Shown here one piece after another: positions 12,700 to 31,936 of a stretch of 43,482 bases of DNA. The notes beneath the pieces are model-generated. The model did no database searches. It saw only the letters and a list, made by a program, of their open reading frames with translations, and was not told the DNA's origin. The stretch is from Gemmatimonadota bacterium. Lineage in GTDB: Bacteria > Gemmatimonadota > Gemmatimonadetes > Palauibacterales > Palauibacteraceae. The stretch covers positions 1 to 43,482 of the forward strand of contig JAJDWE010000013.1 of NCBI GenBank assembly GCA_022825725.1, written 5' to 3'. The position numbers and the translations under genes are program-made. How positions within the stretch are numbered: the stretch's first letter is position 1; each line of letters starts with the position of its first letter.

Positions 12700-15453
12700 A
12701 TGAGAACGACACGCAGGTTTGCGGCGGTGGCGGGGTTCGTGTCCGTGCTGGCCGTACCGGGTGCGGCCGAGGCCCAGCTTCCAGCGGGCGTCACCGAGGT
12801 CGCAAGCGTCGAGGGGATCACGGAGTATCAGCTCGAGAACGGGTTGCGCTTTCTGCTCTTCCCCGACCAGAGCAACCAGCGCATCACGGTGAACATCACC
12901 TACCTCGTCGGCTCGAGACATGAAGGGTACGGCGAGACGGGCATGGCCCATCTCCTCGAACACCTCGTGTTCAAGGGGACCCCGAACCACCCGGACATCC
13001 CGAAGGAGCTGGACGAGCACGGCGCCTTCCCGAACGGTACGACGTGGTTCGACCGCACGAATTACTTCGAGACGTTCCCGGCCACCGACGAGAACCTCGA
13101 GTGGGCGCTCGACCTCGAGGCCGACCGCATGGTGAACTCGTTCATCGCCCAGGAGGACCTCGAGTCCGAGATGACGGTCGTCCGGAACGAGTGGGAAGCG
13201 GGGGAGAACAGCCCGCAGGGCGTGCTGCAGAAGCGGGTGCTGTCCGCCGCCTACGACTGGCACAACTACGGGAACTCCACGATCGGTGCGCGCGCGGACA
13301 TCGAAAACGTGCCCATCGATCGGCTGCAGGCCTTCTACCGGAAGTACTACCAGCCGGACAATGCGATCCTCGTCGTCGCCGGGCGCTTCGACCCGGACCG
13401 GGCGCTCGAACTCGTGGCCGAGAAGTTCGGTGCCCTCCCGCGGCCGGATCGCACGGGGGCGAACCAGCTATTCCAGACGTACACCGCCGAGCCCGCCCAG
13501 GACGGCGAGCGTACCGTCACCCTGCGGCGCGTCGGCGACGTCCAGTTCGCGATGGCGGCCTACCACATGCCGCCCGGCTCGCACGAGCATTTCGCCGCCG
13601 TCGACGTGATGACGCACATCCTCACCGCGCGTCCCGCGGGGCGTCTCTACCAGGCGCTCGTCGAGCCGGGTCTGGCCGCCAACGCGTTCGCCGGCAACTT
13701 CCAGTTGCGCGAGCCGGGCATCCTGTTCGCCGGCACGGAGGTGCGCGAAGGCGACTCGCTCGACGAAGCCGCCGACGTCATGCTCGCCACGATTCAGGCG
13801 CTCGTCGACGAGCCTCCCACCGCAGAGGAGGTCGACCGGGCGAAGACGGACTTTCTCTCGGGCATCGAACTCTCGTTCAACAACCCCCAGGGGATCGCCC
13901 TTCAGCTCAGCGAATGGGCGTCGATGGGCGACTGGCGCCTCTTCTTCCTGCACCGGGATCGCCTGGAGCGGGTGACGCCCGAGGCGGTCCATCAGGTCGC
14001 ACAGGCCTATCTCAAGCCTTCGAATCGGACGATCGGCTACTTCTACCCAACGGACGAAACGCCTGCCCGCGCTGAAATCCCCGGGCCGCCGGACGTCGGA
14101 GCGCTGGTCGCCTCGTACACGGGGCGCGAGGCGGTGGCCGAAGGGGAGGCGTTCGAGCCCACGATCGAGAACATCGAGGCCCGGACGGAGCGGTTCGAAC
14201 TGCCCAACGGCCTCAAGGTCGCCTTTCTTGCCAAGGAGAACCGCGGCGACGCCGTGAACGTGCGCTTCACGCTACGGCATGGCACGGAGGGTGCCCTCAT
14301 GGGGCAGGCGACCGCAGCTTCACTCGCCGGCGCCATGCTGATGCGGGGGACGGAGAACCGATCCCGCCAGGATATCTCCGATGAACTCGATCGCCTGAAG
14401 GCCCAGGGAGGCGTAGGCGGAAGCGCCACCACTGCGAGCGGATCGTTCACGACCGTGAGGGAGAATCTCCCGGCTGTCCTCCGGCTCGGTGCCGAGATCC
14501 TCCAGCAGCCGGCCTTCGCCCCGGACGAGTTCGAACTGCTGCGCGAGGAGCGACTGGCCGGAATCGAGTCGCAGATGTCGGAGCCGCAGGCCCTCGTGGT
14601 CCAGGCCTTCCAGCGCCATTTCAGCGAGTATCCGGCAGATCATCCCCGCTACTCGCCGACCTTCGAGGAACAGATCGAGCGCCTCGAGGCCGCGACGGTG
14701 GACGAGGCGCGCGCGTTCTGGGAGGGCTTCTACGGGGCGCAGGGCGGCACCATGTCCGTCGTCGGCGACTTCGACGCCACGGAGATCCGCGCCCTGGTCG
14801 AGGAACTATTCGGGGACTGGACGGCGAGCGAGCCCTACGCCCGCGTGCCGGTGCAGTACCGCGAGATCGAGCCGCTGACCCTCGACATCGAGACGCCGGA
14901 CAAGGCGAACGCCATGATGTTCGCCGGCCTCACGATTCAGATGCGCGACGATCACCCCGACTACCCCGCCCTGCTCCTCGGCAACCACATCCTGGGCGGC
15001 GGCATGAACTCACGGATGTTCAGCAGGATTCGGGGAGAGGAAGGCCTGTCGTACGGAGTGGGCTCCAACTACGGTGCGCCCCCGATCGATGACAACGCGC
15101 AGTTCATCGCCTTTGCGATCTTCGCGCCGGAGAACGCGGACAAGGTCGTCGCGTCGTTCACGGACATCCTCGACGTCATGCTGGCGGACGGGTTCACGGA
15201 AGAGGAATTCGCGGGCGCGAAGCGCGGATATCTCGACCAGGCGCAGAACGCCCGCTCGAACGACGCCGTCATCGCGAACATGCTGTCGAACAGCCTGTTC
15301 CTGGACCGCCCGCTCGCATTCACGGCGGAGCAGGAGGCGGCGATCGAAGCGCTGACCGCTGCCGACGTCGTGGCCGCGATGCGGCGGCACATCGATCCGA
15401 CGAGGCTGACGATCGTCCGGGGCGGCGACTTCGCGAACAAGCTCGTCCCGTAA
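12700..15453 (+). CDS. Exported M16-family zinc metallopeptidase, two-lobed
   Basis: ATG 12700 was chosen for GGAG six nt upstream and a clean signal peptide ending GAAEAQ; an in-frame ATG at 12688 overlaps the icd stop. The 917-residue product holds two fused M16 halves. The N-terminal half has the inverted zinc motif His84-Leu-Leu-Glu87-His88 (HLLEHLVFKGT) and the third ligand Glu164 (VRNEWEAGEN), 76 residues downstream as is usual in the family. The C-terminal half (from about residue 500) lacks HXXEH and keeps the ARG-loop-like GLSYGVGSNY region. This is the PqqL/pitrilysin-like single-chain arrangement, probably periplasmic, degrading peptides. It converges on the S9 peptidase gene. Confidence 0.9.
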   Translation: MRTTRRFAAVAGFVSVLAVPGAAEAQLPAGVTEVASVEGITEYQLENGLRFLLFPDQSNQRITVNITYLVGSRHEGYGETGMAHLLEHLVFKGTPNHPDIPKELDEHGAFPNGTTWFDRTNYFETFPATDENLEWALDLEADRMVNSFIAQEDLESEMTVVRNEWEAGENSPQGVLQKRVLSAAYDWHNYGNSTIGARADIENVPIDRLQAFYRKYYQPDNAILVVAGRFDPDRALELVAEKFGALPRPDRTGANQLFQTYTAEPAQDGERTVTLRRVGDVQFAMAAYHMPPGSHEHFAAVDVMTHILTARPAGRLYQALVEPGLAANAFAGNFQLREPGILFAGTEVREGDSLDEAADVMLATIQALVDEPPTAEEVDRAKTDFLSGIELSFNNPQGIALQLSEWASMGDWRLFFLHRDRLERVTPEAVHQVAQAYLKPSNRTIGYFYPTDETPARAEIPGPPDVGALVASYTGREAVAEGEAFEPTIENIEARTERFELPNGLKVAFLAKENRGDAVNVRFTLRHGTEGALMGQATAASLAGAMLMRGTENRSRQDISDELDRLKAQGGVGGSATTASGSFTTVRENLPAVLRLGAEILQQPAFAPDEFELLREERLAGIESQMSEPQALVVQAFQRHFSEYPADHPRYSPTFEEQIERLEAATVDEARAFWEGFYGAQGGTMSVVGDFDATEIRALVEELFGDWTASEPYARVPVQYREIEPLTLDIETPDKANAMMFAGLTIQMRDDHPDYPALLLGNHILGGGMNSRMFSRIRGEEGLSYGVGSNYGAPPIDDNAQFIAFAIFAPENADKVVASFTDILDVMLADGFTEEEFAGAKRGYLDQAQNARSNDAVIANMLSNSLFLDRPLAFTAEQEAAIEALTAADVVAAMRRHIDPTRLTIVRGGDFANKLVP

Positions 15454-15463
15454 ACCCGCCGAC

Positions 15464-15506
15464 GGGAGCGGCGGGCGGCCGGATCAGCGGCCGCCCGTCT
15501 GCTCCC
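15464..15506. terminator. Bidirectional hairpin between convergent peptidase genes
   Basis: GGGCGGCC (15473-15480) pairs with GGCCGCCC (15489-15496) around an 8-nt loop, extended by GGGAGC (15464-15469) with GCTCCC (15501-15506). It lies between the convergent M16 and S9 genes and includes the last codons of the latter. No T tract. Confidence 0.5.
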
Positions 15507-18051
15507 GCTCCACGTTCAACTGCGTGATGTCCGGGCTCCACCGCGTATCGCCCAGCAGGTGCTTCACGAAGTACTCCGCGCGCAGCCAGAACCAGTAGTC
15601 GCTCATGTCCCCGTAGCCGTGCCGCTGGCCGGGGAAGACGAAGTAGTCGAACCGCTTGTTGGCCCGGATCAGCGCCTCCGCCATGCGGTGCGTGCCCGCG
15701 TGGTGGACGTTGTTGTCGATGTCGCCCGTCGTGAGCAGGAGGCGTCCCTTCAGGTTCGCGGCGAGGTCCGAGTTGCGCTCGATCTCGTACTCGAAGGTCA
15801 CGTTCCCGCTGTCGTCGACGACTTCACGCACGCCGTGGTGTTTCTCGGACCAGTTCTGGTTGTACACGTCGTTGTTGTGGTTCCCGGACGAGGAGACCGC
15901 GACCTTGAAGAAGTCCGGGTAGACGAGCATCGCCGCCGTCGACATGAAGCCGCCGCCGGAGTGCCCGTAGATCCCCACGCGGTCGATGTCGATGAAGTCG
16001 TGCCGATCGGCGAGTTGCTCGATCGCGGTCTTCTTGTCCGCCAGCCCGTAGTCGCGGAGGTTCCCGTAGCCGTAGTTGTGGTACCACTTCGAGCGGGCCG
16101 GGTGGCCGCCGCGGTTCCCCACCGTGATCACGATCATCCCGAACTGGGCCAGCGCCGTCTCGTAGCGCGCCGTCGAGAACGACTTCGCGACGGCCTCCGT
16201 CTGCGGCCCGGGATAGACGTAGGCGACGAGCGGATACGTCTTCTCCGGATCGAAGTCGAACGGCTTGTAGATCACGCCGTAAAGGTCGGTCACGCCATCG
16301 TCCGCCTTCACGGTGTAGGGCTCGGGGAAGCCGTAGCCCGCCTCTTCCAGCTTCGAGAAATCCGCCGTCTCGAGGTCCATGATCCGGCGGCCGTTGGCCG
16401 CATGGAGCGCCGCCGCCGGCGTGGTGTTGACGCGCGAGTAGTTGCTGACGAAGAAGCGGTTCGACTCCCCCATCTCGACGCGGTGATCGAAGTCGCCGGG
16501 GTTCAGAATCGTCAGCCCGGAGCCGTCCAGATTCACGCGGTACACGTGCTGGTAGTAGGGATCCTCGCCCTCCTCGCGCGCGTTGGCCTGGAAGTAGACG
16601 ACGCCGGCCGACTCGTCGATCCCCACCACCTGGCGCACCGACCACGGACCCTCGGTGAGGCGGTTGCGAAGCGTGCCGTCCGGCCCGAACCGGTACAGGT
16701 GCGCCCAGCCGTCGCGTTCCGACCACCACAGCATGTCGCCGGACTCGAGGAGTTCGAGCCGCTGGAACTCCACGTAGGTGTTGAGCCGCTCCTCGAACAG
16801 CACGCGCGCCTCGCCCGTCGCTGCGTCCGCCACCATCACGTCCACGCGGTGCTGGTCGCGGCTCTGCCTCACGAAGTGAAGTTCGTCGGAGCCGGGCGAG
16901 AGCCACAGCGAGCGGAACGGCTCCTCGCTGTCCGGATAGCGGAACTGGCGCGCGGAGGTCGTGAAGAGGCGGTGGTCCTTCCACTCCTCCGGCATCGCGA
17001 CCTCGACCATGTTCCGGTCCTGGAGGTCGTAGATGAGAAGCTCGGGCTGGCTCACGGTCTCCTCGCCCGGCATGTCGTACTTGTAGGACTCGAGTTCGGG
17101 CCGCTTGTTGCCGACCATGTGAATGACCCAGAGGTTCCCCACCTCCCGCCGGTCGCGGCGGATGAGGGAGAAGCGGCGCGAGTCATGGGCCCACGAGATC
17201 GACACCCGCTTCCGCTCGTCCGCGTTCTCCTCCCGCTCGATGTCCGTGTCCCCGCGCTCGAATACGGCGTAGCTGTAGTGCTCTTCGCCGTCCGTCGTGA
17301 GCTGCGTCTCCTCGACCTCGATCCCGTCCTCCGCGTCGTCCGCCTCGTCCCCGCTCTTCCCGCGGCGCGCCTCGAGGAACTGCTGGTAGTCGTCCCCGCT
17401 CATCATGTGGAGGTTGTGGTCGCGGGCGAAGACGACCGTCTGGCCGTCGGGGGACACGCTGGCCCATGACGGGTGATTGTCGGGCGCCTCCCAGTCCTCG
17501 AGTTCCCGCAGCACCCGCGTGTTCACGTCGTACTCGAAGTGGAAGACCTTCTTGCGCGCGCGCCGGCGCTGCTGCTCGCCCTCTTCCTCCTCCTCGTCCA
17601 GCTCCTCCATCTCCGATTCCGTCTCGTCTTCCTCCTCATCCTGCGAGGACTCGACCTCGAACTGGAGCGTGTTCGCGTCGATGAACCTGATCGCGCGGAT
17701 CGGGAGGTGCTGGCCGTCCCAGGGGTCGCGCGTGATGCGGGTGAGTTCGGCCGCGATGCGGTCGTTGTCGAAGATCTGCCGCTTCGTCCCGGCCACCGGA
17801 TCCACGATGTGGTAGAAGGAGCCGTCGGAGGTCTCCCACTCGTACCAGAAGGACTCCGAACCCTCGATCCACTGCGGATCGACAGAGGTGGAGTAGACGA
17901 GATCCTGGATCTTGTACGGCGCGAAGCGCGCCGCGAGGCGGTAGTTCGCCGGGTCTTCGGCGGCCTCCTGCGCGGCGAGCGGCGCCGCGAGCAGGATCAC
18001 GGCGGCGAACGGAAGAAAGCGGCGGAGATGGGCACGGTATGCGGAGTTCAT
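15484..18051 (-). CDS. S9-family prolyl peptidase (DPP-IV-like), exported, with acidic insert
   Basis: ATG 18051 gives 855 residues with a signal peptide ending LAAPLAAQ; an earlier ATG adds an unlikely Arg/Thr-rich stretch. An N-terminal eight-bladed-propeller-type domain (about 40-600) is followed by an alpha/beta hydrolase domain. The triad is Ser698 (GIYGHSGGGF), an Asp in GDIDNNVH (about 779) and His811 (QRHGYGD). YVYPGPQ, before the oxyanion region, is typical of DPP-IV-like enzymes. Residues 135-168 form an unusual insert, a run of Glu/Asp followed by RRRARKK, with a second acidic patch near 235-250. It probably cleaves dipeptides from imported or environmental proteins in the periplasm. 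Confidence 0.9.
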   Translation of the reverse strand: MNSAYRAHLRRFLPFAAVILLAAPLAAQEAAEDPANYRLAARFAPYKIQDLVYSTSVDPQWIEGSESFWYEWETSDGSFYHIVDPVAGTKRQIFDNDRIAAELTRITRDPWDGQHLPIRAIRFIDANTLQFEVESSQDEEEDETESEMEELDEEEEEGEQQRRRARKKVFHFEYDVNTRVLRELEDWEAPDNHPSWASVSPDGQTVVFARDHNLHMMSGDDYQQFLEARRGKSGDEADDAEDGIEVEETQLTTDGEEHYSYAVFERGDTDIEREENADERKRVSISWAHDSRRFSLIRRDRREVGNLWVIHMVGNKRPELESYKYDMPGEETVSQPELLIYDLQDRNMVEVAMPEEWKDHRLFTTSARQFRYPDSEEPFRSLWLSPGSDELHFVRQSRDQHRVDVMVADAATGEARVLFEERLNTYVEFQRLELLESGDMLWWSERDGWAHLYRFGPDGTLRNRLTEGPWSVRQVVGIDESAGVVYFQANAREEGEDPYYQHVYRVNLDGSGLTILNPGDFDHRVEMGESNRFFVSNYSRVNTTPAAALHAANGRRIMDLETADFSKLEEAGYGFPEPYTVKADDGVTDLYGVIYKPFDFDPEKTYPLVAYVYPGPQTEAVAKSFSTARYETALAQFGMIVITVGNRGGHPARSKWYHNYGYGNLRDYGLADKKTAIEQLADRHDFIDIDRVGIYGHSGGGFMSTAAMLVYPDFFKVAVSSSGNHNNDVYNQNWSEKHHGVREVVDDSGNVTFEYEIERNSDLAANLKGRLLLTTGDIDNNVHHAGTHRMAEALIRANKRFDYFVFPGQRHGYGDMSDYWFWLRAEYFVKHLLGDTRWSPDITQLNVEREQTGGR

Positions 18052-22762: not shown

Positions 22763-24136
22763 ATGTCCGATTTCGCCGCCCATATCGACCGCGAACTGCC
22801 TCGCTTTCACGACGAACTGAAGGCCTTTCTCCGCATTCCCAGCGTCAGCACCGATCCCGGGCATGCGGGCGACGTGCGCGCCTGCGCGGACTGGGTCGCG
22901 GAGCATCTCCTCGCGGCGGGGATGCAGGAGGCCGAGGTCATCGAAACCGGAGGGCATCCGATCGTCGTCGGCGAACGGATCCACTCCGACGAGGCCCCGA
23001 CCGTGCTCGTATACGGGCACTACGACGTGCAGCCCTCGGAGCCCGACGAGTTGTGGACGAGCCCGCCGTTCGACCCGGAGGTCCGCGACGGCCGCCTGTA
23101 CGCCCGCGGATCGATCGACGACAAGGGGCAGGTCCACATGCACATCAAGGCGCTCGAGACGCGCCTGGCGACCGGGGCGGGCGTGCCGGTCAACCTCAAG
23201 CTCGTGATCGAGGGCGAGGAAGAGGTGGGAAGCCGCCACCTCGCGGCGTTCCTCCATGAGCACGCGGAGCGGCTTGCCTGCGACGCGATCCTCGTCAGCG
23301 ACACCGGGATGTTCTCCCCGGAGTTGCCGTGCATCACGACCGGACTGCGGGGCATCGTCTACACCGAGATCAACGTCCACGGCCCCCGGTCGGACCTTCA
23401 CTCCGGCACCTACGGCGGCGCGGTCGTGAACCCCGCCAACGCGCTGGCCGCCATCCTCGCCGGGCTCCGCGACGAAGATGGCCGGGCCACGGTGCCGGGA
23501 TACTACGACGCGGTGCGACCCATCAGCCCCCGCGAACGTGCCGACCTCGAACGCCTCCCCCTGGATGAGGAGACGCTCCGGATGGGCGTCGGGGCGCCGG
23601 CGCTCGGCGGGGAGGCCGGGTTCTCGGCGCTGGAGCGGCTGTGGTACCGCCCCACGCTCGACGTGAACGGGCTGCTCAGCGGCTTCACCGGCGAAGGCTC
23701 GAAGACCGTTCTCCCGTCGCATGCGATGGCGAAGGTGTCGATGCGGCTGGTTCCGGATCAGGACCCCGCGCAGGTGATCGAGGCCTTCGAGGCCCGCGTC
23801 CGGGAACTCGCGCCGGAGGGCGTGACCGTCGAGATCAAGCGCTCGCACGGCGGCGCGCCCTGGGTGGCCGACACCGAACATCCCGTCTTCGACGCCGCGT
23901 CCGCCGCGCTGGAGTCGGGGTTCGGCGCCCCGCCCGCGTACATCCGCGAGGGCGGCTCGATCCCCATCGTGCAGGAGTTCGAGGAGACGTTCGGCGCCCC
24001 GGCGCTCCTCATCGGCTTCGGGCTGCCGGGAAGCAACATGCACGCGCCGGACGAGTGGATCGACCTCGAGGTCTACCGAAAGGGGATCGCGGCCCTTGCC
24101 GACCTCTACGGCCGCCTCGCCGACCCACTCGCCTGA
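22763..24136 (+). CDS. M20-family dipeptidase
   Basis: The 457-residue metallopeptidase is preceded by GGGAG. It has the di-metal motifs VLVYGHYDVQPSEP (His and Asp), ARGSIDDKGQVHMH (bridging Asp), IEGEEEVGS (catalytic Glu pair), SDTGMF and, near the C-terminus, GSNMHAPDEW (His ligand). The lid domain with LHSGTYGG lies in the middle (about 205-320). This pattern is that of M20 dipeptidases of the CNDP/DapE-related group, cytosolic and acting on dipeptides. It follows the diaminopropionate lyase gene and converges on the osmC gene. Confidence 0.92.
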   Translation: MSDFAAHIDRELPRFHDELKAFLRIPSVSTDPGHAGDVRACADWVAEHLLAAGMQEAEVIETGGHPIVVGERIHSDEAPTVLVYGHYDVQPSEPDELWTSPPFDPEVRDGRLYARGSIDDKGQVHMHIKALETRLATGAGVPVNLKLVIEGEEEVGSRHLAAFLHEHAERLACDAILVSDTGMFSPELPCITTGLRGIVYTEINVHGPRSDLHSGTYGGAVVNPANALAAILAGLRDEDGRATVPGYYDAVRPISPRERADLERLPLDEETLRMGVGAPALGGEAGFSALERLWYRPTLDVNGLLSGFTGEGSKTVLPSHAMAKVSMRLVPDQDPAQVIEAFEARVRELAPEGVTVEIKRSHGGAPWVADTEHPVFDAASAALESGFGAPPAYIREGGSIPIVQEFEETFGAPALLIGFGLPGSNMHAPDEWIDLEVYRKGIAALADLYGRLADPLA

Positions 24137-24144
24137 GCCGCCGC

Positions 24145-24194
24145 GAGTTCAGTCGACCGGGACGATGTCGAGTTCAGTCGACCGGGACGATGTC
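24145..24194. repeat. Perfect 25-bp tandem duplication spanning the osmC stop codon
   Basis: Two identical 25-bp units (24145-24169 and 24170-24194) contain the last coding bases and the stop of osmC (DIVPVD, then TGA), so the gene's tail is repeated just after its own stop. Replication slippage is the likely origin. Confidence 0.85.
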
Positions 24195-24641
24195 GAGTTC
24201 CGTCGTGATGTCGATGCAGCCGGAAAGCGTCCGGTAGACCGGACACTTCGGCGGATGGGCCTCGAACGCGCGCCGGATCGCATCGGCGTGCGCCTCATCC
24301 GCCTGCAGACGGTATCGGGCCCGGATCCGCCGGATCACGAGCACGCCGTCGTCCGTCTCGACCTCGCCCTCCACGTTCGCCACCAACCGTCCTTCATCCG
24401 CCTTGACGCCGCGCGCTTCCAGCGCGCCCCCGAAGGTTCCGGCCAGTCAGCCGCCGGTCGCGGCGATGACATAGTCGAGTGTGGTGGCGATGTCGCGGTT
24501 GTCGCGAACTCCGTAATACTCGGCGACCGCGGAGTGGACGCCGAAATCGACCGGCGCATCCGTGGCCGGGATCTCCGCCGTGCGGTATGGACCCTTCTGT
24601 CGCACGATCTTCACGTGCGAGCGGTAGACGACTTCACTCAT
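24174..24641 (-). CDS. OsmC-family thiol peroxidase-like protein, predicted selenoprotein (in-frame UGA, codon 65)
   Basis: ATG 24641 overlaps the nudix stop (ATGA). The frame runs 64 codons, meets TGA at 24449-24447, and continues in the same frame for 90 more codons to the TGA at 24174. The joined 155-residue product is a full OsmC protein: TTLDYVIAATGG, then U65, LAGTFGGALEARG, VANVEGEVE, IRRIRARYRL, and the second conserved Cys in PKCPVYRTLSG. U65 sits where OsmC-family proteins carry their first conserved, peroxide-reactive Cys. A hairpin suited to a bacterial SECIS begins 20 nt after the UGA. OsmC-like selenoproteins have been described before from marine metagenomes. A simple nonsense mutation is the alternative, but it would have to hit exactly this codon and leave the rest intact. 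Confidence 0.8.
24411..24427 (-). promoter_or_regulatory. Candidate bacterial SECIS hairpin for osmC
   Basis: In the mRNA, GCGCGC pairs with GCGCGC around the loop UGGAA. The loop starts 26 nt after the UGA and has a G in its second position, in keeping with the usual bacterial SECIS rules (short stem, G among the first two loop bases, loop roughly 16-37 nt from UGA). Not tested with a SECIS program. Confidence 0.5.
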
Positions 24642-25234
24642 TGGCCGGTTCTCTCCGTGATGATGTCGAGGAAGTTCATGACGACGCGGTGCGTGAGCCC
24701 CCAAATGGCGTCGCCCTCGTACAAGATGGAGGGCCACACATGTTCGTGGCCACCATCGGGATAGCGGACTTCCGAGCGCAGTGCCGGGTCGCGCAGCGCG
24801 CGGAGCGGAGCCCACACATGATACTGCACTTCGGCGTTCGTCGAGACCCGTGCGCCCTCCCCGTGCCACGCGACGAAGGGGGAGATGAGGATCGGCGGGA
24901 TCCGGCGCGTCACCGGGTGCAGGTCGTCGAGCCGTCCGAGGAACCCGTTGCGCGGAAGATCGAGCCCCACCTCCTCGCGCAACTCGCGCCGCGCCGTCTC
25001 CAGGAGATCCGCGTCCGCCGCGTCCCGGTGTCCGCCGGGAAGCGCCATATGGCCGGACCACGGGTCGCCGGGGAGCTCCGCTCGACGGACGAAGAGCACT
25101 TCCAGGTCGCAACCGCGCGGACGGATCACGAGGGTCACGGCCGCGTGCCGCTCCGCCGCCCCGGGATCGACCTCGGTGTGACCCGCCGTGACCAGCCGAT
25201 GAGCGACCCGTGCCGCGCTCCAACCCTTGCTCAC
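24638..25234 (-). CDS. Nudix hydrolase, CoA-pyrophosphatase-like
   Basis: GTG 25234 overlaps the rsgA stop (GTGA) and gives 198 residues. The strand VTLVIRPRGCDLEVLFVRRA leads to GHMALPGGHRD and the Nudix box ending ETARRELREEVGLDL (REXXEE present). The PGGHRD...DLLETA spacing before the box resembles the NudL/CoA-diphosphatase group. The C-terminal part (HPVTRRIPPILISPFVAWH) also fits that group. It probably hydrolyses a nucleoside-diphosphate-linked substrate such as CoA. It is translationally coupled on both sides, to rsgA and to the selenoprotein osmC. Confidence 0.85.
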   Translation of the reverse strand: MSKGWSAARVAHRLVTAGHTEVDPGAAERHAAVTLVIRPRGCDLEVLFVRRAELPGDPWSGHMALPGGHRDAADADLLETARRELREEVGLDLPRNGFLGRLDDLHPVTRRIPPILISPFVAWHGEGARVSTNAEVQYHVWAPLRALRDPALRSEVRYPDGGHEHVWPSILYEGDAIWGLTHRVVMNFLDIITERTGQ

Positions 25235-26184
25235 CGACCCTTCTCCGCCTCGTCGAGGAGGCGCAGGTAGCTCTCCAGCCGCCTCCGCCCGATCGTCCCA
25301 TCCTCCACGGCCGCTCGAACCGCGCAGTCCGGCTCCACCCGATGCCGGCAATCCGCGAACCGACAGGAGTCGCTCATCGCGGCGATCTCGACGAAGCCCC
25401 CCGAAAGCTCCGCCGGATCCAGCTCCCACAGCGCCAGGTACTGCAAGCCGGGCGTGTCCGCCACGTAGCCGCCCCCCGGATATCGATAGAGCGCCGACGC
25501 CACGGTCGTATGCCGCCCCCGCCCCCGCCGCTCGCTGATCTCGCCCACACGCAGATCGAGTTCCGGCACGAGCGCGTTCAACAGGCTCGACTTTCCCACG
25601 CCCGACTGCCCGCTGAGCACCGTGATCCGTCCCGCGAGGCGTTCCGAAAGCGCCCCTAGCCCCGCCCTCGACTCGACGCTCGTGCGCAGCGTCTCCACGC
25701 CGAGCGCGGCGTACTGTTCGAGGCCGTCCCCGGGTGCCGGTTTCCCGACCGCCGCGCCGGAACTCGCAGCGTTCGGCACAGGCTCCGCGAGGTCCGTCTT
25801 GTTCACGACGAGGAAGGCGTCGATGCCGCTCAGCGCCGCGAGCGCGAGCAGTCGGTCCACCATGAGGAAGTCGGGATCGGGCGCCGTCACCGAGACGACG
25901 ACGGCGACCTGGTCCACGTTCGCCACGATCACCTGCTCGCGCCGCTTGGAGACGCCGTGCCGGGAAAGCGCGCCGCTTCGCGTGCGAAGCCGAACGATCC
26001 GCATCTCGTCGCCGACGCGTTCCATCTCGACGAGGTCGCCGACCGAAACGATGCGCGAGTCCGTCCGCTTCAGGCGCCCCCGCAGCGAGGCCCGGACCAC
26101 CGTCCTGGAATCGTCGACGTGATAGACCCCACCCGCGATCCGCAGCACGCGGCCAACGGTAGCGGAGGGGCCGCCGGAGCTCAC
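25231..26184 (-). CDS. rsgA: Ribosome small-subunit-dependent GTPase A
   Basis: The 317-residue circularly permuted GTPase acts in late 30S maturation. An N-terminal OB fold (about 10-80, SVGDLVEMERVG) is followed by the permuted G domain: G4 VVNKTDL, then G1 LSGQSGVGKSSLLNAL, a G2-like GRGRHTT and G3 ADTPG. The C-terminal zinc domain is CRFADCRHRVEPDC. A low-complexity insert (VPNAASSGAAVGKPAPGDG) lies after G4. It starts 34 nt after sufU on the same strand, so it may be read from the suf promoter. Confidence 0.95.
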   Translation of the reverse strand: MSSGGPSATVGRVLRIAGGVYHVDDSRTVVRASLRGRLKRTDSRIVSVGDLVEMERVGDEMRIVRLRTRSGALSRHGVSKRREQVIVANVDQVAVVVSVTAPDPDFLMVDRLLALAALSGIDAFLVVNKTDLAEPVPNAASSGAAVGKPAPGDGLEQYAALGVETLRTSVESRAGLGALSERLAGRITVLSGQSGVGKSSLLNALVPELDLRVGEISERRGRGRHTTVASALYRYPGGGYVADTPGLQYLALWELDPAELSGGFVEIAAMSDSCRFADCRHRVEPDCAVRAAVEDGTIGRRRLESYLRLLDEAEKGR

Positions 26185-26218: not shown

Positions 26219-26716
26219 TCACCCGGAGCCGCCGTCGGCGTCCGTCCCGTCGCCCAGCTCCTCGAGACAGTTCCACGCCAGCAGCGCGCACTTGATGCGG
26301 ACCGGAAACTTCGAGACCCCCGCCAGCGTGCGCAGATCGCCGAGGTCGTCGTCCGACAGCAGCGCTCCCTCTCCGTGCAGGAGGTGCGTGAACTTCCGGG
26401 AGAGTTCCAGCGCCTGCTCGAGCGATTTGCCCCGCACGCGTCCCGTGAGCATCGACGCCGACGCCAGGCTGATCGAGCACCCGCGGCCCAGGAAGCGCGC
26501 CTCGGCGATGCTCCCCCCTTCCACGCGCAACATGAGTTCGATCACGTCGCCGCAAAGGGGGTTGTTCATCGTGATCGCGTGCGTGGCTCCGTCCAGGTGC
26601 CCCTTGTTCCGGGGTTTCCGGTAGTGATCGAGGATGACTTCCTGGTACAGCTGATTGAGCGACGAAGGGATTTCCCGGTCGATCGTCCCGGGCGGCTCCG
26701 AACGGGGTTCGATCAT
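26219..26716 (-). CDS. sufU: SufU-type iron-sulfur assembly protein
   Basis: The 165-residue protein has the N-terminal motif LYQEVILDHYRKPRNKGHL and the three conserved Cys in NNPLCGD, GRGCSIS and RIKCALLAW, with the Asp of CGD as the fourth ligand. In SufU-type systems the protein binds zinc and takes sulfur from the SufS persulfide. The insertion between the second and third Cys that separates SufU from IscU is present (SLEQALELSRKFTHLLHGEG region). It starts 4 nt after the sufS stop. The C-terminus is Gly/Asp-rich. Confidence 0.93.
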   Translation of the reverse strand: MIEPRSEPPGTIDREIPSSLNQLYQEVILDHYRKPRNKGHLDGATHAITMNNPLCGDVIELMLRVEGGSIAEARFLGRGCSISLASASMLTGRVRGKSLEQALELSRKFTHLLHGEGALLSDDDLGDLRTLAGVSKFPVRIKCALLAWNCLEELGDGTDADGGSG

Positions 26717-26720
26717 GGAT

Positions 26721-28052
26721 TCAGGCGATGCCGCCGAAGACTTCGGCTGCCAGGGCGAGCCCTTCGCACAGCACGTCGATCTCCCGCGGCGAATTGTAGA
26801 AGTAGAAGCTCGCCCGGGCCGTACTGCTGATCCCGTAGTGGTCCATCAGCGGCTGGTTGCAATGGTGCCCCGCCCGGATCGCGATTCCCCGCTGGTCGAG
26901 GATCGTGGAGAGGTCGTGCGGATGTATGTCACCGTAGGTGAAGGAGAAGACCGCGGTCCGCCCTTCGCGCGGGCCGTACAGGTGAAGCCCTTCGATCTCG
27001 TCGAGCCGCTCGAAAACGGCGCGCTTCAGGGCGTCTTCGTGCGACGCGATCGCCTCCGATCCGAGGTCCGCGAGGAAGCGGGCGGCTTCGCCGAAGCCCA
27101 CGACGCCCGAGATGTTGGGCGTTCCGGCCTCGAACTTGTGGGGAACCTTCGCCCAGGAAGATCTCTCGAGCTTCACGTCGGAGATCATCTCGCCCCCGCC
27201 CTGATACGGGGGCATCTCCTCCAACAGTTCCCGCCTGGCCCACAACGCTCCGACGCCGGTCGGGCCACACATCTTGTGGCTGCTGAACGCGTAGAAGTCG
27301 CACCCGAGCTTCGCCACATCGGTGAGCATGTGGGGCGCGGCCTGCGCTCCGTCGATGAGCGTCAGCGCGCCGGCGGCGTGAGCGCGGTCCACGATCTCGC
27401 GGACCGGATTGACGGTCCCGAGGCTGTTGGAGACGTGCGTACAGGCGACCAGCCGGGGTCGCTTTCCGAGGAGCCGGTCGTAGTCGTCCAGATCGAGCGT
27501 GCCCTCGGACGTGACGTCGACGAAACCGAGTTTGCACCCCGTGCGGCCCGCGAGCAGCTGCCACGGCACGAGGTTCGAATGGTGCTCCATCTTCGTGAGC
27601 ACGATCTCATCGCCCGCGCCGATGAACGCATCCCCCCAGCTCGACGCGACGAGGTTCACCGCCTCCGTCGTGCCGCGCGTGAAGACGATCTCCGCCGGAT
27701 CTCTCGTCCCCGCATGCGCCGCCACCGAACGGCGGGCGCCCTCGTAGGCCTCCGTCGCTTCGGCGCTGAGCTGATGCACGCCGCGGTGCACATTGGCGTG
27801 CTCCTCGCGCAGATATCGCTCGACCCGGTTCAGCACACGGAGCGGCTGCTGCGAGCTCGCCGCGTTGTCGAGGTAGGCCAGGGGGTGGCCGTGGACTTCC
27901 CTCGAGAGAATGGGGAACTGGGCCCGGATCGCCGCGAGATCCCAGCCACCGCCCGCCGAAACGTCACCCGCATCGCCGCGCCCGGCCGCCTCAGGGGGAC
28001 GCTCGGACGCCAAGGTGCCCGTTGCCTGCTTCGTATCCGTCATCTCCGCCAT
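26721..28052 (-). CDS. sufS: Cysteine desulfurase SufS
   Basis: The 443-residue PLP enzyme takes sulfur from cysteine for Fe-S assembly. The start is ATG 28052, or 28043 nine bases later; the longer reading overlaps the Rieske gene and is not protein-like. A variable tail of about 45 residues precedes AAIRAQFPILSREVHGHPLA. HHSNLVPWQ, DGAQAAPH and the PLP Lys in SSHKMCGPTGVG are all present, as is the catalytic Cys in RAGHHCNQPLM. These are of the group II SufS type. It lies between the Rieske gene and sufU, its sulfur-transfer partner. Confidence 0.95.
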   Translation of the reverse strand: MAEMTDTKQATGTLASERPPEAAGRGDAGDVSAGGGWDLAAIRAQFPILSREVHGHPLAYLDNAASSQQPLRVLNRVERYLREEHANVHRGVHQLSAEATEAYEGARRSVAAHAGTRDPAEIVFTRGTTEAVNLVASSWGDAFIGAGDEIVLTKMEHHSNLVPWQLLAGRTGCKLGFVDVTSEGTLDLDDYDRLLGKRPRLVACTHVSNSLGTVNPVREIVDRAHAAGALTLIDGAQAAPHMLTDVAKLGCDFYAFSSHKMCGPTGVGALWARRELLEEMPPYQGGGEMISDVKLERSSWAKVPHKFEAGTPNISGVVGFGEAARFLADLGSEAIASHEDALKRAVFERLDEIEGLHLYGPREGRTAVFSFTYGDIHPHDLSTILDQRGIAIRAGHHCNQPLMDHYGISSTARASFYFYNSPREIDVLCEGLALAAEVFGGIA

Positions 28053-28080
28053 CGGGCCCCGGTCCTCGGCTGGGTCGGGC

Positions 28081-28392
28081 TCAGCCGAGGTCGACCTGAA
28101 TGTCGTCCCCGTCGATCCGCACGTCGAAGCGCCGGACCGGCATGACCGCCGGGAGCGCCCTCGGCGCGCCGGTCGCCAGATCGAAGCGCGCCCCGTGGAG
28201 AAGACAGGTGATCTCGCCTGCCTCGACCTCGCCGTCCGAGAGCGGGAACTCCTCGTGGGAGCAGCAGTCCTCGAGCGCGTAGACCTCACCCCCGCTGCGG
28301 ATCAGAGCGATCGCCAGGTCCTCGGCCATCACCCCGCACGTACCGTTCTCCGGCACATCGTCGACCCTGGCCACCGTGACGAATCGGCTCAT
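28081..28392 (-). CDS. Rieske-type [2Fe-2S] ferredoxin in the suf operon
   Basis: The 103-residue protein has the two Rieske cluster motifs, CSH in DCCSHEEFPLSDG and CLLH in TCLLHGARFDL, and a fold of about the size of bacterial non-haem oxygenase ferredoxin components. No oxygenase gene is nearby. The start overlaps the sufD stop (ATGA), and such small Rieske proteins recur inside suf operons of several phyla. It may feed electrons to cluster assembly or be an early client (inference). Confidence 0.9.
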   Translation of the reverse strand: MSRFVTVARVDDVPENGTCGVMAEDLAIALIRSGGEVYALEDCCSHEEFPLSDGEVEAGEITCLLHGARFDLATGAPRALPAVMPVRRFDVRIDGDDIQVDLG

Positions 28393-29720
28393 AGCCCGAT
28401 CTTCTCCTCGATCGCTTCGCGTACGCGCGCGCGCACCCCCTCCATCGGAAGGCGCCCGAGCACCTCATCGAAGAAGCCGAACACGAGCAGGCGCTCCGCC
28501 TGGCGCCTCGTGAGACCGCGGCTCATCAGATAGAAGAGTTGCCCGTCCTCGACCTGTCCGATCGTCGCCCCGTGCGAGCAGCGCACATCGTCGGCCTCGA
28601 TCTCCAGGTTGGGAAGCGCGGAGGCATGAGAGCTCTCGCTGAGAAGCAGGTTGCGGTTCGTCTGATAGGCGTCCGTGAGCTGGGCTCCCTTGTCGACCCG
28701 GATCAACCCGCGGAAGACGCTCGACCCGGCATCCGTCAGCGCCCCCTTGAACAGCAGATCGCTGTGCGCGTGCGGCGCCGCGTGATGCTGCAGCGTGTGG
28801 TGGTCGAAGTGCTGGTTGGAGTCGCCGAACCAGAGTGCGAGCATCTCGCTGTCGCTCCCGGGCCCGTCGAGACGGCTTGTGACGTCCGCCCGCGAAAGGT
28901 CGCCGCCGAGCGCGACGTTGAAGGTCACGACGCTAGAGTCGCGGCCCGCGGTGACGTGCTGCGTCGAGAATCGCTTCACGCCCCGGCCGAAGCGCTGGAG
29001 CGCGACGTACTCGATACCCGCGCCCCCCTCCCCGGTGATCGTCGCCCCGTGAAGCGAGACCGTCTCGGCCTCGAGGTCGTCGGAGAGGAACTCGTCGATG
29101 ACCGCGGCCCGGGCACCGGACTCCGCGTACACGAACGAATGTGCGGAGGAGAGCGTGCCCGCCCGCTCGACGATGTGGAACGCGTGGATCGGCGCCGGCA
29201 TCTCCACGCCGCGCGGAACGTAGAGGAAATAGCCTCCGCCCAGGAGAGCGAGGTGCAGCGACCAGAGCTTCTCCTCCGCGGGGCCCGGCTGCGCCTCGAG
29301 CAGCGCCCGCTTCAGCACCTCCGGATGCCGATCCGCCGCGTCCCGGATCGACGACAGGACCACGCCGCTCCGCGCCACTTCGGGTTCGAGTTCGAGGTGC
29401 GCGACCCGGCCCTCCCGCAGCACGACGACGCCCGCGCGCTCCCCGGAGCGTCCGAGCACCTCGCGCACGTCCGCCGACAGCGCTTCCGCCGTCGCGGGTG
29501 CCGGGACCACCGGAGTGAGCGCCTCGAAGCCGACCTTCGCGAGGTCCGTGTACCGCCATTCCTCCGACTTCTTCGTCGGCCAGGGAAGGGCGTTGAACCG
29601 TTCCCATGCGGCGGCCCGCGCCCCCGCGATCGTTTCCGGCTCCGTCACCTCGCCGGAAAGCGCATCGAAATCCGCCGCGGCCAGCGTCGACTCCGCCGGC
29701 CCGGCTGTCATCGTGCTCAT
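28389..29720 (-). CDS. sufD: Fe-S assembly scaffold subunit SufD
   Basis: The 443-residue protein is the SufB partner in the SufBC2D scaffold. An N-terminal helical region with [19 protein letters not shown] is followed by a right-handed beta-helix (about 150-400: [33 protein letters not shown]) and the C-terminal [20 protein letters not shown]. The start overlaps the sufB stop (ATGA), indicating coupled translation and equal dosage. [10 protein letters not shown] contains the conserved His region used for cluster formation with the SufB Cys. Confidence 0.95.
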
Positions 29721-31132
29721 CCGACCGATCCCTCCATCTCCAGCTCGATCAGCCGGTTCAGCTCGATCGCGTACTCGAGCGGCAACTCCTTCGCCACCGG
29801 CTCGATGAAGCCGCGGACGATCATCGCCATCGCCTCCGCCTCGTCGAGCCCGCGACTCATCAGATAGAAGAGCTGCTCGTCGCCGACCTTCGAGACCGTG
29901 GCCTCGTGCCCGATGGACGCCGTGTTCTCATCGATCTCGATGTAGGGGTAGGTGTCCGTCCGCGACGTCTCGTCGAGCAGCAGGGCGTCGCACTCGACGT
30001 TGGACTTCGCGCCCTCGGCGCCGTCGTACACCTTGCACAGTCCGCGGTACGAGGAGCGCCCGAGCCCCTTCGAGATCGACTTGGACGTGATCTGGGATGT
30101 CGTGTTCGGGGCGGCGTGGATCACCTTGCCGCCTGTGTCCTGGTGCTGACCGTCCCCGGCGTACGCGATGGAGAGGATCTCGCCGTGCGCCCGCTCTCCG
30201 ACCAGATAGCACGACGGATATTTCATCGTGAGTTTCGAGCCCAGGTTCCCGTCGAGCCACTCCATCTTCGCCTCCTCGTGCACGAGCGCCCGCTGCGTGA
30301 CGAGGTTGTACATGTTGTTCGACCAGTTCTGGATCGTGGTGTACCGGAAGCGCGCGCCCTTCTTGACCACGATCTCGATGACGCCGGAGTGGAACGAGTC
30401 CGTCGAGTAGACCGGCGCCGTACAGCCCTCGATGTAGTGGGCTTCGGCCCCCTCTTCGCAGATGATCAGGGTGCGCTCGAACTGGCCCATGCGCTCCGCG
30501 TTGACCCGGAAGTAGGCCTGGAGCGGGATCTCCACCTTCACCCCCTTCGGGATGTAGACGAACGATCCGCCCGACCATACGGCCGAGTTGAGCGCCGCGA
30601 ACTTGTTGTCGTGCGTGGGCACGACGGTCGAGAAGTACTGTCGGAACAGCTCGGGGTGCTTCGCGAGCCCGTCCTCGATCGACTCGAAGATCACGCCCTG
30701 CTCCTCCCACTGCTCCTTCAGGGAGTGGTAGACCATCTCGGACTCGTACTGGGCCCCGACCCCGGCGAGCGCCTTACGCTCCGCCTCGGGGATCCCGAGC
30801 TTCTCGAACGTGTCCTTGATCTCCTGCGGGACGTCGTCCCAGGACCGCTCCATCTGGTCCTGCGGCTTCAGGTAGAAATAGATCTCGTCGAGCGTGTCCT
30901 CGAGCTTCGAGAGGTCGCCGCCCCACTTCGGCATCGGCTTGGAGTAGTAGACCTCGAGCGCCTTGAGTCGGAACTCGAGCATCCACTGCGGCTCTTCCTT
31001 GTGGTGCGAGATCTGTCGGACGATGTCCTCCGACAGGCCGGGGACGGCCTTGAAGACGGGCTTGTCCTCCGTGACAAATCCGTACTTGTACTCGTCGAGT
31101 CCGAGTTCGGTGATCGTCTCGTTCCGGGGCAT
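29717..31132 (-). CDS. sufB: Fe-S assembly scaffold subunit SufB
   Basis: The 471-residue protein has SufB hallmarks: EYKYGFVT near the N-terminus, [64 protein letters not shown], the functional Cys in [12 protein letters not shown] and [20 protein letters not shown] strong ribosome-binding site (AAGGAAGGAATCGAC) precedes ATG 31132, and the gene follows sufC after 30 nt. It binds the nascent cluster with SufD and is driven by the SufC ATPase. Confidence 0.97.
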
Positions 31133-31162
31133 GTCGATTCCTTCCTTTACGGCTTTAAGGCG

Positions 31163-31936
31163 TCAGACCGCCGCCACCGCCCGGTGGAGCCAGTCGTAAC
31201 CCTCCGCCTCCAGCTTGTCGGCGAGCGAGGCGCCGCCGCTCTCCGCGATGCGGCCAGCCATCATGACGTGTACTCGATCCGGACGGATATAGTTCAGGAT
31301 CCTCTTGTAGTGCGTGATGAGCAGAACCCCGAGCGCCTCGTCGGCTTCGGAGAGGCGGTTCACGCCGCTGGCCACGATCTTGAGCGCGTCGATATCGAGT
31401 CCGCTGTCGGTCTCGTCCAGGACCCCGAGCGCCGGCCGAAGCACGGCCATCTGCAGGATCTCGTTCCGCTTCTTCTCGCCGCCGGAGAAGCCATCGTTGA
31501 CGTACCGGGCCGCGAAGCCCGGATCCATCTTCAGCATCTCCATCTTCTCCGTGAGGGTGCGCTGGAACCCGAACACATCCATCTCCTCGCCCTCGGCCAG
31601 CCGCGAGTTCACGGCCGTCCGCAGAAAATTGGCGATCGAGACGCCCGGGATCTCCGCGGGATACTGGAAGGCGAGAAAGATCCCCGCGCGGCTCCGCTCA
31701 TCCGGCTCCAGCTCGAGGACGTCCTCTCCCTCGAACAGGATCTCGCCGGCCGTCACCTCGTAGGCGGGGTGGCCGGCGATGACCTTGGCGAGCGTGCTCT
31801 TGCCGGAGCCGTTGGGACCCATCAGGGCATGCACCTCGCCGCGCTGGACGTCCAGATCGACGCCGCGCAGGATCTCCCCGTCCTCGCCGTCGACCTTCGC
31901 CCGGAGTCCGCGTACCGACAGAAGCGGTTCTGACAT
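31163..31936 (-). CDS. sufC: Fe-S assembly ATPase SufC
   Basis: ATG 31936, with GAGG about 6 nt upstream, gives 257 residues; earlier ATGs add an unlikely Arg-rich stretch. ABC-ATPase motifs are Walker [14 protein letters not shown]-loop [10 protein letters not shown], signature [14 protein letters not shown], and Walker [18 protein letters not shown]; the H-loop reads [10 protein letters not shown]. SufC is soluble and powers the SufBC2D scaffold. It is the first gene of the - strand run to 24174, so the promoter just upstream probably serves the whole set. Confidence 0.97.

Follow-up and report, generated by a model that had tools for sequence, protein, structure and literature searches.

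In thiol peroxidases of the OsmC/Ohr type, the two reactive cysteines are the peroxidatic and the resolving residue. Selenoproteins of the same superfamily have been reported as an OsmC-like selenoprotein in 2005, with three sequences from the Sargasso Sea (PMC1088965), and in 2008 in GOS, with the motif UxxT (PMC2398784), and are listed, again with UxxT, as COG1765/YhfA (PMC9312934) and as PF02566 (PMC13188914); PMC12013277 mentions neither OsmC nor PF02566. The subject here is an OsmC-family gene on the minus strand of a 43 482-nucleotide stretch of a contig from a Gemmatimonadota bacterium (GenBank accession number JAJDWE010000013.1; this whole stretch is referred to as the window), in which an in-frame UGA at codon 65 is predicted from sequence comparison, with a probability of about 95%, to insert selenocysteine (Sec) into a protein with the OsmC fold.

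The name of the NCBIfam model NF041052 (OsmC_like_Se, 'OsmC-related (seleno)protein') and the UxxT motif suggest that this model represents the published family. In 247 genomes of the phylum to which genome G303 belongs, three matches over its cut-off of 95 were found in two genomes, all with TGA; of the two that were read, one has FULLTQ (ULLT in locus L118) at the site and the other FUMFSQ. The window protein shares with the published proteins the OsmC superfamily, a predicted Sec at the first reactive Cys and a UGA with a downstream hairpin. However, it scored only 13.5 bits against NF041052 (18.7 bits for a second paralogue in the same genome), carries the motif ULAGT, which is UxxG and not UxxT, and was separate in the tree described below. 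As the score is far below the cut-off and the motif is ULAGT, the window protein is, on sequence grounds, a new and separate branch of the already known OsmC selenoproteins, with the reserve that AACY01145085, MBR72571.1 and MCS5647933.1 were outside the comparison and that it could conceivably be identical to one of them. An original prediction made from the window sequence alone had stated that OsmC-like selenoproteins were already known, which is correct for the published UxxT, YhfA-type and NF041052 proteins, though these belong to a different branch. No NCBIfam model scored over its cut-off on the window protein or on a further six OsmC proteins, of which five are family members from outside Gemmatimonadota or the clade 2 paralogue, and standard annotation therefore probably splits or truncates the gene.

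An in-frame UGA conserved across phyla

The features of the gene are as follows.

24174..24641, minus strand: OsmC-family predicted selenoprotein gene, 155 amino acids (aa), Sec at residue 65, ATG at 24641 and stop TGA at 24176-24174
24447..24449, minus strand: in-frame UGA, codon 65, predicted Sec, at the first reactive Cys in the alignment to E. coli OsmC
24411..24427, minus strand: SECIS-like (selenocysteine insertion sequence-like) hairpin GCGCGC-UGGAA-GCGCGC, nucleotides 20-36 after the UGA
24243..24245, minus strand: codon 133, Cys, the second conserved Cys and likely resolving residue, at the second Cys in the alignment to E. coli OsmC

The only internal stop in this frame is the TGA at 24449-24447. 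Both flanks share one frame and carry OsmC sequence with the flanking residues originally described, and the Pfam OsmC domain (PF02566) spans the UGA (residues 55-148; 46.3 bits, gathering cut-off 27.5). The second conserved Cys had been said to remain, and codon 133 was indeed invariant in the 21 rows of an alignment of the family (A1). Third codon positions hold 470 of the 571 base differences downstream of the UGA (all pairs among the window and eight close relatives), indicating that this part of osmC is under protein-coding constraint and is not decayed. At the end of the gene (24144-24200, minus strand), a 25-base stretch that includes the stop codon is tandemly duplicated; it is single in the near relatives L018 and L020.

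Relatives were collected from genome contigs using six peptide patterns, none of which spans codon 65. This gave 40 loci from other assemblies, and codon 65 was TGA in all 40, with no further stop in the matched stretches that were read. This agreement among all 40 relatives makes chance or sequencing error very unlikely. A profile built from the 21 sequences of A1, all Sec forms, was then run against samples of three phyla, named from the record titles of the centre loci. In Gemmatimonadota, the family was present in 90 of 298 genomes, and one TGA was found in 143 of 145 matches (E≤1e-6), the other two being fragments that end by profile position 64. In Chloroflexota, 34 of 350 genomes gave 38 matches (E≤1e-10), of which 35 have one TGA; the remaining three come from G423 (two pieces) and G607 (one piece). 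Among 346 Actinomycetota genomes, 44 gave 55 matches (E≤1e-5), 41 of them with an internal TGA (alone in 40, together with a TAA in one), alongside eight near full-length stop-free sequences and six that are fragments, broken pieces or an unrelated OsmC; a YhfA-type OsmC (G1216:C491) was excluded as a relative. Codon 65 itself was read in 143 of the 144 TGA loci that were fetched (L102 was missed by the motif), and for the remaining matches it is established that a single TGA lies inside. By record titles, the family is found in Gemmatimonadota, Chloroflexota and Actinomycetota and in single Calditrichia, Poribacteria and Desulfosarcina metagenome-assembled genomes (MAGs), mostly of uncultured bacteria. 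A plasmid search with the window OsmC protein gave no match.

Among the eight stop-free Actinomycetota relatives of near full length, a Cys codon (TGC or TGT) stands at the site in seven; L196, the eighth, lacks Cys at this position, and none has Trp. The Cys-form genomes are G912, G976, G987, G1041 and G1227, and the rows score 98-153 bits against the family profile. These homologues belong to the same subfamily as the window protein but differ in having UGC or UGU at the site, in genomes with no selB over the cut-off.

Three OsmC matches were found in the source genome, namely the window gene, a second Sec form and a Cys form (contig C48). The second Sec form (L065; contig C83, about 13040-13474) is an OsmC gene with an in-frame TGA, the motif UMLGT and its own hairpin, GCGCAC-UGGAA-GUGCGC. 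Elsewhere in the family, three copies look decayed (L197 in G1198, L198 in G1135 and L116 in G607), showing additional stops, a shifted frame or a TGG codon at the site. The G607 copy, in a genome that retains selB, has TGG at the site, no normal N-terminus in frame and Gly replacing a conserved Arg of the stem, and looks decayed from its sequence; G1198 holds a second family copy with several stops.

Selenocysteine machinery and a SECIS-like hairpin

The source genome (3.49 Mb, 97.7% complete) carries selA (502 bits, cut-off 268), selB (368 bits, cut-off 242), selD (372 bits, cut-off 125) and tRNA-Sec (79.4 bits, gathering score 47), for which the ARAGORN anticodon TCA agrees. The selD gene (L060; contig C2, about 15298-16224) has an in-frame TGA and reads GAGUACK, at what is presumably the catalytic place, so SelD is itself a predicted selenoprotein. 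In the Gemmatimonadota sample, selB (E≤1e-60) was found in 87 of the 90 genomes with the family and in 133 of the 208 that lack it (Fisher p 7e-11, with kinship ignored). Among genomes with TGA forms, selB over the cut-off was also present in Chloroflexota (28 of 32) and Actinomycetota (32 of 37). All seven of the non-Gemmatimonadota genomes found first have selB as well. None of the five Cys-form Actinomycetota genomes has selB over the cut-off, the partial match in G1227 (219 bits) falling under 242. Genomes G1135 and G1234 (frame-shifted or fragment; both with selB), G607 and G423 were left out of these counts.

The published model of the bacterial SECIS element has a loop of 3-9 nucleotides, an upper stem of 4-16 bp and a G within the first two bases of the loop, with a spacing of 16-37 nucleotides from the UGA (PMC13188914). 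The window hairpin fits this model, with a 6-bp stem, the 5-nucleotide loop UGGAA, a G at loop position 2 and 25 nucleotides from the UGA to the loop. The full set of six pairs is present in 79 of 91 distinct sequences, which represent 143 of the 144 loci (L102 left out); 2-5 of the six are left in the seven Cys forms.

Codon use was counted in 49 distinct sequences, drawn from 88 of the 91 loci that make up the initial 40 and those of Gemmatimonadota and Chloroflexota (L102 escaped the motif, and L055 and L056 were too short). Several codons are nearly fixed beyond what the amino acid requires, namely GGC for Gly at +7 (46/47; 52% elsewhere in the gene), GCG for Ala at +8 (41/41; 37% elsewhere), CTG for Leu at +9 (47/48; 40% elsewhere), GCG (40 of 48) or GCA (8 of 48) for Ala at +11 and CGC for Arg at +12 (45/49; 38% elsewhere). 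Positions +6 and +13 are partly biased, +10, in the loop, is unbiased, and most codons farther out are at background. Paired exchanges were also found. Pair 23-33 is C-G or U-A, and GTG at +8 is always accompanied by GCA at +11 (eight sequences), which exchanges C-G for U-A. Pair 24-32 is G-C, A-U (12 distinct rows) or C-G (three rows, in a third group); in a second clade, GTG at +11 is paired with GCA at +8 in 13 loci, exchanging G-C for A-U, and the GTG/GCA solution is also found in one row of clade 2 (L143).

Several observations weigh against Sec insertion directed by this hairpin. The six-pair hairpin is broken in register in 12 of the 91 distinct sequences, eight of them from the 29 distinct TGA rows of Actinomycetota and three from another group of six rows. 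In a recoding test on 25 different stretches of 39 bases, taken from the window and the 40 loci, the hairpin of a single sequence mostly surpassed its synonymous recodings by only a small margin (p about 0.1), with p<0.01 only for the GTG/GCA forms. For most sequences this test is weak, since GC-rich codons by themselves already promote the stem, and the codon fixation and covariation seen across sequences were used in its place. An Rfam scan of 24000-24700 gave no SECIS match, only a chance match to mir-128. TGA forms were found in genomes with no selB at the thresholds given above (3 of 90 in Gemmatimonadota, 4 of 32 in Chloroflexota and 5 of 37 in Actinomycetota), for which incomplete MAGs may be responsible, and all of the co-occurrence counts disregard kinship. 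In addition, the tRNA score, taken by itself, is less specific than the other markers, as 5 of 14 well-known control genomes passed the tRNA-Sec gathering score; over their cut-offs, selB was found in two of these genomes, selA in one and selD in two.

The Actinomycetota Sec forms lacking six pairs in register are L163-L165, L168, L169, L174, L175 and L178, and by eye several of these could pair when shifted by one base.

Predicted fold and competing explanations

An AlphaFold2 model of the window protein computed with A1 had a predicted local distance difference test score of 92.3 and a predicted template modelling score of 0.85, and its top Foldseek matches were OsmC/Ohr-like. Structural alignment of the model (VIA-align) gave Z 15.2 (2.1 Å over 139 residues) to 2onf and Z 13.2 (2.8 Å over 139 residues) to E. 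coli OsmC (1nye). The fold is thus predicted to be that of the OsmC/Ohr thiol peroxidases (E. coli OsmC 1nye, Ohr 6ebg and T. acidophilum 2onf), with Z from 12.8 to 15.2 and 7-20% identity in structural alignments with the OsmC/Ohr-like chains listed; phmmer against PDB sequences gave no match at E 0.001. Lower-ranking rows with Z about 7, such as FliF ring domains, were regarded as matches of a common arrangement and set aside. The UGA had been placed originally at the first conserved reactive Cys, and hhalign with E. coli OsmC put U65 on the first reactive Cys, which we take to be C59, and C133 on the second, at low probability (13%; E 0.0021). This alignment is consistent with the Pfam match and the predicted fold. 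By analogy, the window protein would differ from OsmC/Ohr in having Sec in place of the peroxidatic Cys, and C133 would be the resolving residue.

A ribosome reaching the UGA at codon 65 would insert Sec from Sec-tRNA(Sec) delivered by SelB bound to the hairpin 20-36 nucleotides downstream. Sec65 takes the position that the peroxidatic Cys has in OsmC, within the central helix. A hydroperoxide, organic or other, would oxidise Sec65, Cys133 would resolve the oxidised form, and a cellular dithiol would then reduce it again. The peroxidase step is considered likely, with a putative substrate and reductant.

The conserved UGA, the alternation of Sec and Cys, the Sec machinery, the hairpin and the predicted fold together support the insertion of Sec. 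The alternative that the TGA is a nonsense codon in an ordinary Cys-type OsmC gene, through decay or through a sequencing or assembly error, would draw on the fact that an isolated in-frame stop in a MAG may simply be erroneous and on the decayed copies in G607 and G1198. However, conservation of TGA at the same codon in all 40 relatives and across phyla in effect refutes it, and the third-position bias downstream and the lack of a further stop before the frame ends are also against it; this explanation is considered extremely improbable. Reassignment of UGA, for example to Trp, or readthrough by a near-cognate tRNA and not by Sec-tRNA, could be argued from the TGG at the site in G607, but that copy looks decayed. 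Moreover, TGA terminates both osmC and the NUDIX gene in the window, tRNA-Sec, selA, selB and selD are present, and the stop-free Actinomycetota relatives have Cys in seven of eight cases and Trp in none, so reassignment or readthrough is very improbable. The original prediction of Sec insertion had named the Sec machinery, codon 65 in relatives, a SECIS element after the UGA and decay of the downstream part as the points on which it turned. All four genes of the machinery were found, relatives have UGA or, in genomes with no selB over the cut-off, mostly UGC or UGU, a conserved SECIS-like hairpin follows the UGA, and coding constraint was seen in place of decay.

A further alternative accepts the selenoprotein and is compatible with the explanation preferred here in that part, but gives it a role other than peroxidase, such as a redox relay or sulfur transfer for the adjacent suf Fe-S genes. 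The functions of the OsmC superfamily are diverse, and in the closest relatives the gene is coupled behind suf, rsgA and nudix. However, no suf neighbourhood was found at the other 32 loci, whose flanks were in part only partly covered, and the protein retains the OsmC layout with two cysteine positions; a role of this kind is considered unlikely, though less so than the two preceding alternatives.

Gene neighbourhood and history of the family

The genes upstream of osmC are on the same strand.

24638..25300 (5' end approximate), minus strand: NUDIX gene, its stop in an ATGA overlap with the osmC start
25231..26184, minus strand: rsgA
26219..31930 (outer limit approximate), minus strand: suf cluster of SufU-like, SufS-like, Rieske, SufD, SufB and SufC-like ATPase genes

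The suf cluster was recognised from NifU_N (SufU-like), class-V aminotransferase (SufS-like), Rieske, two SufBD-core (SufD and SufB) and ABC ATPase (SufC-like) domains. The coupling of osmC to nudix and rsgA behind a suf operon, as first described, is correct for the window locus but does not extend to the family. The order from SufB to NUDIX is kept in only 8 of the 40 relatives, the closest ones (L017-L024), and the suf-rsgA-nudix genes were not detected at the other 32 loci (tblastn, E≤1e-10; flanks partly covered, several loci being short or on cut contigs). Clustering of open reading frames, spurious ones included, found no neighbour common to the flanks of all 32. As the context was found only in the eight closest relatives, the suf link is a local arrangement and not a feature of the family.

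A tree was built from 87 Sec rows chosen from the loci, the eight stop-free Actinomycetota rows and nine other OsmC rows, and a second tree without five long outgroup rows. The 95 family rows were apart from the nine other OsmC rows, which include two NF041052 Sec proteins, suggesting that Sec was probably acquired at least twice in OsmC, though the branches that connect the groups are long. All stop-free rows fall into one clade, nested among Sec rows in both trees. Reversion from Sec to Cys was at first judged likely from this nesting, but was given up, as a single Sec clade was not rejected by the approximately unbiased test (p 0.903) and the likelihood was slightly higher with the Sec rows together. 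The copies from the Poribacteria, Anaerolineaceae and Desulfosarcina MAGs (L047, L048 and L053) form one well-supported set (98/89), a grouping that suggests horizontal transfer or MAG contamination.

The hairpin, conserved within a coding stretch, provides a natural test set for SelB recognition in these phyla. A tentative proposal, to which we give somewhat less than even weight, is that in this lineage of OsmC peroxidases Sec, together with one strongly conserved SECIS hairpin, represents a long-standing normal state that has been both kept and passed among at least six phyla (by MAG labels), with Cys forms appearing where SelB is missing. If this is true, it would be a bacterial selenoprotein family held as Sec over deep time and not the product of sporadic late conversion of Cys to Sec.
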